A stretch of DNA of 33,080 bases from Oceanicaulis sp. (GTDB lineage: Bacteria > Pseudomonadota > Alphaproteobacteria > Caulobacterales > Maricaulaceae): contig JAFIEB010000127.1 in assembly GCA_020832735.1 (NCBI GenBank), positions 1 through 33,080 on the forward strand, given 5' to 3'. The position numbers were made by a program, and so were the translations under genes. This document shows positions 21,744-22,432 of the stretch, piece after piece (the stretch's first letter is position 1; every line of letters begins with the position of its first letter). A model generated the notes under the pieces. That model worked only from the letters and a program-made list of their open reading frames with translations. It had not been told where the DNA came from and ran no database searches.

Positions 21744-22168
21744 GATTTTTCGAGAATTTGGGGGCGGGCGATTCCTATTACGCTTATCACCACCCTCCCG
21801 CTTCTCCGGCCTCTCTGGCGGGGACCGTGCGGCGCCCGGCGCCAACGCGGCGCGGTGGAGAGTGCGGCATGTGACATGACGCGCGCAGTCTATACCGGCG
21901 CGGGGCGGGGGTGGATAAGGGAGGCAAGGTCACTGCCTTCCCGGAATTTGCGCAGCAAATATCCGGGGTCCATCCCCTGAAGTTTCAACCGCCTCAGAGG
22001 CAGGACGGTCTAGTGGATGGGTCGGGTCTCCCCGGCTCAAGGCCATGGCGTCCGGGAAGGCAGGTTTGGTGGAAAGGGGCCTCGTTCGCTCTCCTCACGC
22101 CAACATTTCCCTTTCCCCCGCCAAAGGCGTAGACCTGAGGGGCGCCCACCAGCCCCCGGAGACACCCC
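21744..22168. other. 425-base intergenic region
   Basis: No credible gene is present: a 73-codon plus-strand frame and several minus-strand frames cross it, but none has a ribosome site or recognisable family. The left part (21744-21905) is GC-rich with no clear signal besides the small palindrome CATGTGACATG at 21868-21878. The centre (21933-22063) is the inverted-repeat element listed separately. The right part (22064-22168) should hold the promoter of the lipoprotein gene; I see no strong -35/-10 pair there. Confidence 0.6.
21933..22063. repeat. 131-base nested palindromic element with 13-base terminal inverted repeats
   Basis: CTGCCTTCCCGGA at 21933-21945 and its perfect reverse complement at 22051-22063 bound the element. 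Further inside, CCGGGG (21963-21968) pairs with CCCCGG (22030-22035), CCATCC (21970-21975) with GGATGG (22015-22020), and GCCT/AGGC (21991-21994 / 21998-22001) closes the tip. The whole could fold into one long interrupted hairpin. The left arm also forms its own hairpin (21941-21966, stems CCGGA-ATTTGC / GCAAAT-TCCGG). There is no coding capacity and no obvious target-site duplication. This architecture fits a small non-autonomous mobile element or a dispersed intergenic palindrome. Copy number cannot be judged from one window. Confidence 0.6.
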
Positions 22169-22432
22169 ATGCGTATCGCACTCGCCGTCATCGTTCTCAT
22201 GCTGGTGCTGGCGGGGTGCGCAGAGCCGGCGCCGGGCGGGGTGCAGCCAGGCGCGCCGGGCTTTTTGTACGGGCTCGCCCATGGCTTTTTGTTGCTCTTC
22301 ACCTTCATCGCCAGCTTCTTTGCTGATGTCGCGGTCTACGCCACGCCCAATAATGGCTGGCCCTACGATCTGGGCTTTCTGATCGGGGTGATGGTGTTCT
22401 TTGGCGGCTCGGCCGGGTCAGCACGGCGCTAG
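22169..22432 (+). CDS. Small putative lipoprotein of unknown function
   Basis: An 87-residue protein. Its N-terminus is a lipoprotein signal (MRIALAVIVLMLVLAGC) with a lipobox LAGC, so Cys17 would be lipidated. The mature part has a short Pro/Gly linker and a hydrophobic segment (about 36-52, GLAHGFLLLFTFIASFF) followed by YATPNNGWPYDLGFLIG and a second hydrophobic stretch. The pattern of a short lipoprotein with a YxxxNNGWPYDLGF-type motif suggests a conserved but uncharacterised alphaproteobacterial family. The ATG has GGAG upstream. It stands between the repeat element and lpd, with 81 bases to the latter. I assign no function. Confidence 0.75.
   Translation: MRIALAVIVLMLVLAGCAEPAPGGVQPGAPGFLYGLAHGFLLLFTFIASFFADVAVYATPNNGWPYDLGFLIGVMVFFGGSAGSARR

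Follow-up and report, generated by a model that had tools for sequence, protein, structure and literature searches.

The CGTC REPs, defined by Di Nocera, De Gregorio and Rocco in 2013 (PMC3733652), are described in the parts of that paper drawn on here as CCA-tailed stem-loops that form head-head dimers, some with structured spacers, and that come with several loop types. They are dispersed, occur in several bacterial phyla and include the Neisseria dRS3 and the Rickettsia RPE-4 and RPE-6 repeats. According to the same parts of the paper REPs are located mainly downstream of coding regions, and the CGTC REPs apparently lack a dedicated transposase (Y1 or other) and are not associated with transposase genes; the mobilising genes may have disappeared. 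The second relevant system is REPIN-RAYT (the REPtrons), in which short palindromes are scattered over the genome and a few-copy gene is flanked by the same palindromes. The enzyme of these systems is of the HUH/Y1 type and their palindromes carry a GTAG tag. An excerpt of PMC9465073 includes both RayT and a GIY-YIG gene in a list of clade-specific genes and leaves the two unlinked, and among the matches listed in a search of open-access full text (subscription papers and preprints lie outside its scope) we found no paper linking GIY-YIG nucleases with REPs.

The window, by which we mean the whole 33,080-nucleotide stretch of Oceanicaulis sp. DNA that was analysed, contains a 425-nt gap between an SRAP-family gene (Pfam PF02586; 20781-21743, forward strand) and a forward-strand ORF of 87 aa (22169-22432), which had no Pfam match and is followed by an lpd-type gene. 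The original prediction was that this gap contains a foldable, gene-free segment of 131 bases bounded by a 13-base inverted repeat. The perfect 13-nt repeat was located at 21933-21945 and 22051-22063, and the ORFs of at least 80 aa that cross the element do so mechanically; no sign of a gene within the element was found. When folded as RNA the 131-nt segment gave -66.3 kcal/mol versus a shuffled mean of -49.4 (z -3.96), a value equalled by none of 200 shuffled sequences, and the 129-nt element folded with DNA parameters gave z -4.0. A search of positions 21800-22200 against Rfam gave no matches at E values up to 5, and a plasmid collection searched with the window DNA also gave none.

The element is multicopy, as had been anticipated. 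A search of the genome from which the window derives (G000) gave 14 matches, two of which overlap on opposite strands, and a profile search of the fetched loci placed copies at 14 distinct sites in the same genome. An extra, diverged copy located after the E2 gene of contig C39 brings the total to at least 15. Matches to the repeat were found in at least 6 of 15 genomes of the genus and in at least 14 of 61 sampled genomes overall, counts that are lower bounds, about 14 candidates having been scored per genome. The matches outside the genus were mostly to the left hairpin alone, TCCCGGAATTTGCGCAGCAAATATCCGGG, a pattern which among the matches listed was found also in named Caulobacter, Phenylobacterium, Hyphomonadaceae and other genomes. 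Several hairpins of the pattern common in Caulobacter were present in a MAG labelled Klebsiella pneumoniae (L103, L107, L109, L137, L145, L148), suggesting that this MAG is mislabelled or mis-binned.

Alignment of 54 copies from six genomes gave a consistent order: TGYYT, a left hairpin CCCGGA-tip-TCCGGG, CCA(TCC), a spacer that varies from copy to copy, GGATGG(GT), a right hairpin and RRCA. In the window the whole REP-dimer element, TGCCTTCCCGGA ... TCCGGGAAGGCA, extends from 21934 to 22062 and is assigned to neither strand, its limits being given by the inverted repeat and by dispersed copies with the same ends. The left outer tag TGCC (21934-21937, forward strand) is TGYY in the family, the first T and the G being invariant in the alignment. 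The left REP hairpin (21938-21972, forward strand), defined by the fold and by covariation, consists of the stem TTCCCGGA/TCCGGGG, the inner stem-loop ATTTGCGCAGCAAAT and a CCA tail. A small spacer hairpin, GCCT/AGGC (21991-22001, forward strand), is formed between the two REPs in the fold of the window copy. The alignment places the right REP hairpin, of opposite orientation and with a TGG tail, at 22014-22058 (reverse strand), and the right outer tag GGCA (22059-22062, reverse strand) is the complement of the left tag, as seen in both the inverted repeat and the alignment. In many copies the inverted repeat is longer than the ends first reported, for example CCCACCCC on the left and AGGTGGGTTGTTTGATC on the right. 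In the alignment the right inner stem of the window copy seems three C residues short (GGTCGGGTC versus the consensus GGGTCCCGGGTC); owing to this apparent loss the copy looks decayed, and judged by its sequence it is probably decaying.

The hairpin tips are modular (TTTGC, GGGC, GCCGC, CCGC, CGGC, CGAGC, CCCCGG and others) and are swapped with both sides changed; in the three pairs of the left inner stem both sides had changed in 13, 22 and 23 of the 54 copies. In 90% or more of the copies the left hairpin is followed by CCA, which in the dimer fold pairs with the tail of the other REP. The stem starts with TT; in 49 of 54 copies the pairing partner of the first T is in the outer arm. Covariation was scored on a four-way structure drawn by hand by the author, in which 93.7% of cells pair and 142 cells have changed on both sides versus a shuffled mean of 54, with slid versions giving at most 57. 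The number of pairs with double change, 12, was less striking (27 of 500 shuffles gave as many), and RNAalifold alone found double change in 11 of 24 pairs. Hence, the paired arms carry compensatory changes, another point at which the original prediction held. The architecture is that of a head-to-head dimer of two CCA-tailed hairpins, which can form a four-way, cloverleaf-like fold. As the element is symmetric on both strands, covariation cannot separate a DNA cruciform from an RNA. A structured RNA, one of the identities first proposed, is therefore neither supported nor excluded: the strong covariation is equally expected of a DNA cruciform, and Rfam offered no match.

The CCA tail and the dispersed head-head dimers, some with structured spacers and with several loop types, are features that the window family has in common with the CGTC REPs as described in the parts of PMC3733652 cited above. 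The tag differs, being CGTC, TGTC or CCTC in the CGTC REPs versus TGYY here (TGCC in the window copy; only some copies have TGTC), as does the start of the stem, a complementary AT in the CGTC REPs versus TT here, the first T of which pairs with the opposite REP rather than with its own tail. Because of these departures in the tag and the first stem bases we regard the window family as a variant, not a member, of the CGTC REPs. Neisseria dRS3 and Rickettsia RPE-4 and RPE-6 differ from it in both sequence and host.

The dispersed REP-type repeat that had been offered as one option is thus supported, and the second option, a non-autonomous mobile element, is plausible; the narrower MITE label is not established. 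The element does have terminal inverted repeats, is about 130 nt long and is dispersed, as a MITE derived by deletion from some still unrecognised insertion sequence of the DDE type might be. However, neither a parent element nor a target-site duplication was noticed among the fetched loci, and the copies are imperfect outside and modular inside. We consider an origin of this kind highly improbable. Since the copies cluster, integron attC sites were also considered, and were dropped on inspection by eye; attC sites are recognised by GTTRRRY core sites and an accompanying integrase.

The window locus itself has a history that can be read in part from relatives. The 87-aa ORF and the lpd-type gene are conserved as a pair in G001, G011, G012 and G013, and upstream of the orthologous small gene the element is present in G011 and G013 and absent in G001 and G012. 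In G011 the gene to the left of the element is not SRAP but that of an E2 (2-oxoacid dehydrogenase acyltransferase), and the same holds for G013 as judged by the shared 3' end. In G012 and G001 (L083, L086) a different palindromic repeat, CACCCCTCACCTTACCTCTCCCC..., occupies the space from the E2 gene to the small gene, whereas in G000 the left neighbour is the SRAP gene and the E2 gene is found on contig C39, with the diverged element copy after it. An exchange between two element copies would explain this arrangement most simply; an assembly error at the repeat could also account for the changed neighbours. The empty sites expected in relatives were found only in this form, presence in two and absence in two; no clean pre-insertion site is available, because the two element-free relatives carry another repeat at that place. 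The SRAP orthologues yielded no orthologous gap.

In the REPIN systems the partner is a Y1 transposase. A search for Y1/RAYT (PF01797) gave no match in the 15 genus genomes, some of which are fragmented assemblies; the same search was positive in 5 of 14 control genomes. RAYT was set aside as a partner on this result. The family also lacks the GTAG tag, and the gene found beside it is of another type. In G008, G011 and G012 a gene encoding a 98-aa GIY-YIG nuclease, which matches Pfam PF01541, is enclosed by tandem arrays of the element lying no more than 60 nt away on both sides. The array lies close to thiC in all three genomes, and the three sites probably go back to a single ancestral one. 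In G000, G001 and G013 the stretch after thiC is occupied by other sequence, and no empty sites could be called because the neighbourhood is too rearranged. Downstream of thiC the sequence looks different in each of six related genomes (L396-L401), with a thiC-like fragment in G000 and, by eye, in G001, making this an apparent insertion hotspot.

G000 yielded no close homologue of the partner nuclease, and the link of this enzyme to the window's own genome is therefore indirect. The sole GIY-YIG match of G000 (L228, G000:C117:2611-2877) is 53% identical to the query and belongs with another repeat type, that of tag GCGTTT. As this gene of another group has GCGTTT dimers beside it, two repeat types coexist in the window's genome. 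In G001 and G013 the repeat is present and a nuclease match absent, G013 being in 420 contigs. Two further observations concern the gene. In genus g20 the genome without a GIY-YIG match (G037) has one repeat match, and the two with it (G041, G053) have 14 each, a comparison of three genomes only. An IMG/VR contig (L214, 31-4893) matched the REP hairpin at three places, of which 337-369 is closest to a GIY-YIG ORF near position 31; the contig is filed as viral and may be misfiled bacterial DNA.

The protein has the GIY-YIG domain with the characteristic Y, Y, R, E and N residues: Y9, Y20, R30, E67 and N86, which we take to be the GIY-YIG catalytic positions, are invariant in 34 proteins. The only sequence relative in the PDB at E 0.001 was the UPF0213 protein 1zg2. 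The predicted structure was confident (pLDDT 94.1), and its best PDB fold matches were UPF0213 (E 6e-4) followed by Slx1 chains (E of at least 0.03), one of them with 5' flap DNA. The likeness to UPF0213 and other small GIY-YIG proteins, and to Slx1, thus lies in a sequence relative, the fold and the conserved residues. Slx1 acts on branched DNA, according to PDB titles, whereas the partner nuclease is a single domain of about 98 aa and its Slx1 matches are weak; the modelled fold likeness to Slx1 is suggestive only. Searches with the nuclease of PHROGs, PADLOC and NCBIfam gave no match.

We asked whether the association of repeat and nuclease gene is general. GIY-YIG matches at E 0.001, weak ones included, were present in 48 of 61 related genomes and in 56 of 142 genomes sampled across the class. 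Loci were placed by tblastn for 98 strong homologues (58 from searches and 40 picked from lists with their flanks unseen at picking) and for 34 of 40 weak homologues, which served as a built-in comparison (the six without placement were dropped). For strong genes the motif TCATYCCS, which misses other tags such as TGYYTT, GCGTTT and CTCTT, occurred in 74 of 194 flanks at distances up to 300 nt and farther out in 14/192, 20/192, 6/189 and 12/182 (3-10%); for weak genes the values were 6/68 near versus 7/68 at 300-600 nt. Of the 98 strong genes, 53 had the motif within 400 nt on one side or both, and 25 had it on both; the corresponding numbers among the 34 weak genes were 6 and 1. A consensus-free measure, the similarity of left to right flank (score of at least 25), gave 68/91 for strong genes near versus 14/91 at 600-1000 nt (paired p 6e-14), with a smaller effect for weak genes (16/32 near versus 5/32 far, p 7e-6).

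The cspA gene was used as a control in the same genome set, where 27 of 30 loci were usable, three being cut by contig ends; owing to short flanks, three of the 98 strong loci were dropped from this comparison and seven from the pair comparison. In the related genomes none of 54 cspA flanks had the motif versus 45 of 96 GIY-YIG flanks, and left and right flanks were similar at 6 of 27 cspA genes versus 41 of 48 GIY-YIG genes. In the class-wide sample the motif was found in 28/94 strong versus 6/68 weak flanks, and flank similarity in 30/47 versus 16/34, scores that are not significantly different (p 0.22). A scan for head-head dimers with matching tags was positive near 37 of 98 strong genes (far, 3/90), 4 of 34 weak genes (far, 1/32) and 1 of 27 cspA genes (far, 2/26), as well as in 5 of 12 named records. 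We conclude with confidence that CGTC-like repeats are associated with one GIY-YIG subfamily in many lineages.

Dimers beside a nuclease gene recur elsewhere in its own genome. In all five genomes tried the nuclease-side dimers matched widely, with at least 47 matches in G022, at least 12 in G016, at least 116 in G047, at least 26 in G048 and at least 27 in G045 (matches, not copies), and among the matches listed nearly all fell on the own genome's section of the joined query, the few exceptions being in G048. In a pair test, pairs of nuclease loci whose outer flanks are unlike each other (3916 in all) were binned by normalised protein score. Near-flank repeats were common to the pair in 11 of 11 cases at scores of at least 0.8, 7 of 27 at 0.7-0.8, 7 of 149 at 0.6-0.7 and 21 of 3729 at lower scores. 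Few groups are represented among the 11 close pairs, and not all of these are independent, three of them (G008, G011 and G012) counting probably as one site; the clearest independent case is that of two nuclease-plus-repeat copies on different contigs of G022. Over all pairs the rank correlation of protein and repeat was weak (rho 0.067; 16 of 300 permutations were as high). By eye, the tags shift with the nuclease group: TGYYTT in G008, G011 and G012; GCGTTT at G000 C117, at the second genes of G008 and G011 and in G027, of another genus of the family; CTCTT in G003, G005, G009 and G026; and TGTCAT and CGTCAT beside other nucleases.

The plasmid collection contained 33 records with a nuclease homologue, of which 12 were opened for taxonomic spread and judged by eye. 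CGTC-like hairpins or dimers were seen near the nuclease gene in ten: Sinorhizobium meliloti, Novosphingobium aromaticivorans, Rhizobium CIAT894, Azospirillum lipoferum 4B, Neisseria gonorrhoeae, Planktothrix agardhii (a cyanobacterium), Sphingobium, Aeromonas caviae, Spirosoma oryzicola and Shinella. In Rhizobium L51/94 and Photobacterium nothing was seen but a hairpin lying over 100 nt downstream. In the N. gonorrhoeae record CGTC-type hairpins lie on both sides of the GIY-YIG gene, and by resemblance these are dRS3. Such repeats, for which the cited parts of PMC3733652 report no associated transposase, are here found alongside GIY-YIG genes. In the S. meliloti record (L354, 820-1680) the apparent 3' end of a second nuclease copy lies upstream of the GIY-YIG gene with the same REP next to it, and direct repeats of 116 nt that are 96% alike suggest that a unit of gene plus REP has been duplicated in tandem.

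In A. lipoferum the nuclease gene with a dimer on each side interrupts sufB-sufC, which is without the insert in five relatives (A. ramasamyi, A. oryzae, B510, A. thermophilum and A. argentinense). GIY-YIG enzymes include homing nucleases, and a free-standing GIY-YIG gene could have used pre-existing REP dimers as its homing target while the repeats multiplied otherwise (by slippage, recombination or a transposase not yet known). The gene within the operon would then be a homing event, as would the gene-plus-repeat unit found at two sites of G022, and the repeats of G001 and G013 would need no nuclease. However, no CGTC-like hairpin was seen by eye at sufB-sufC in the five relatives, and it follows that the gene and its dimers arrived together or that a REP was lost. 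The sharing of repeat type by close nucleases in all 11 pairs, not all independent, also speaks against repeats that multiply separately from the gene. We consider homing into repeats spread by other means unlikely.

It could also be argued that the element is a selected regulatory structure, such as a transcription terminator or a stabiliser of mRNA ends, that ordinary recombination has spread, and that its link with the nuclease is incidental. Some copies lie, by eye, directly after stop codons, in keeping with the placement of REPs downstream of coding regions in the cited parts of PMC3733652, and the strong fold with its covariation would be expected of such a structure. This explanation has no counterpart in Rfam and leaves unaccounted for the repeats beside nuclease genes in several phyla, the tandem arrays and the sufB-sufC insertion, and we judge it a distinctly poor prospect.

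The window contains one copy, probably decayed, of a clade-specific, non-autonomous family of REP dimers. We think it rather likely that the partner of this repeat type is the small GIY-YIG endonuclease, acting by cutting followed by host repair. The steps that we infer for the candidate nuclease are recognition, cutting and copying of REP dimers: the enzyme would recognise the folded, tagged REP dimer, either as a cruciform or as a hairpin on the lagging strand, and would cut it, upon which host recombination would repair the break from another copy. Such repair would spread REP dimers and occasionally a gene-plus-REP cassette in a homing-like manner. The model has to call on host repair, since GIY-YIG enzymes break DNA by hydrolysis and have no strand-joining activity.

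A broader proposal, to which we give even chances, is that these elements constitute a second kind of REPtron, present in Proteobacteria, Cyanobacteria and Bacteroidota, in which a structure-selective GIY-YIG nuclease is paired with cognate, tag-matched REP dimers and cut-and-repair replaces HUH transfer. The frequent flanking of the nuclease gene by CGTC-like repeats makes the question of how these repeats spread testable with a protein of 98 residues and a DNA of 130 nt. If true, the proposal would explain what a large family of small GIY-YIG proteins does and would add a second case of bacterial replicators that combine an enzyme with palindromes, the GIY-YIG enzyme being a candidate for the missing machinery that spreads CGTC-type repeats.
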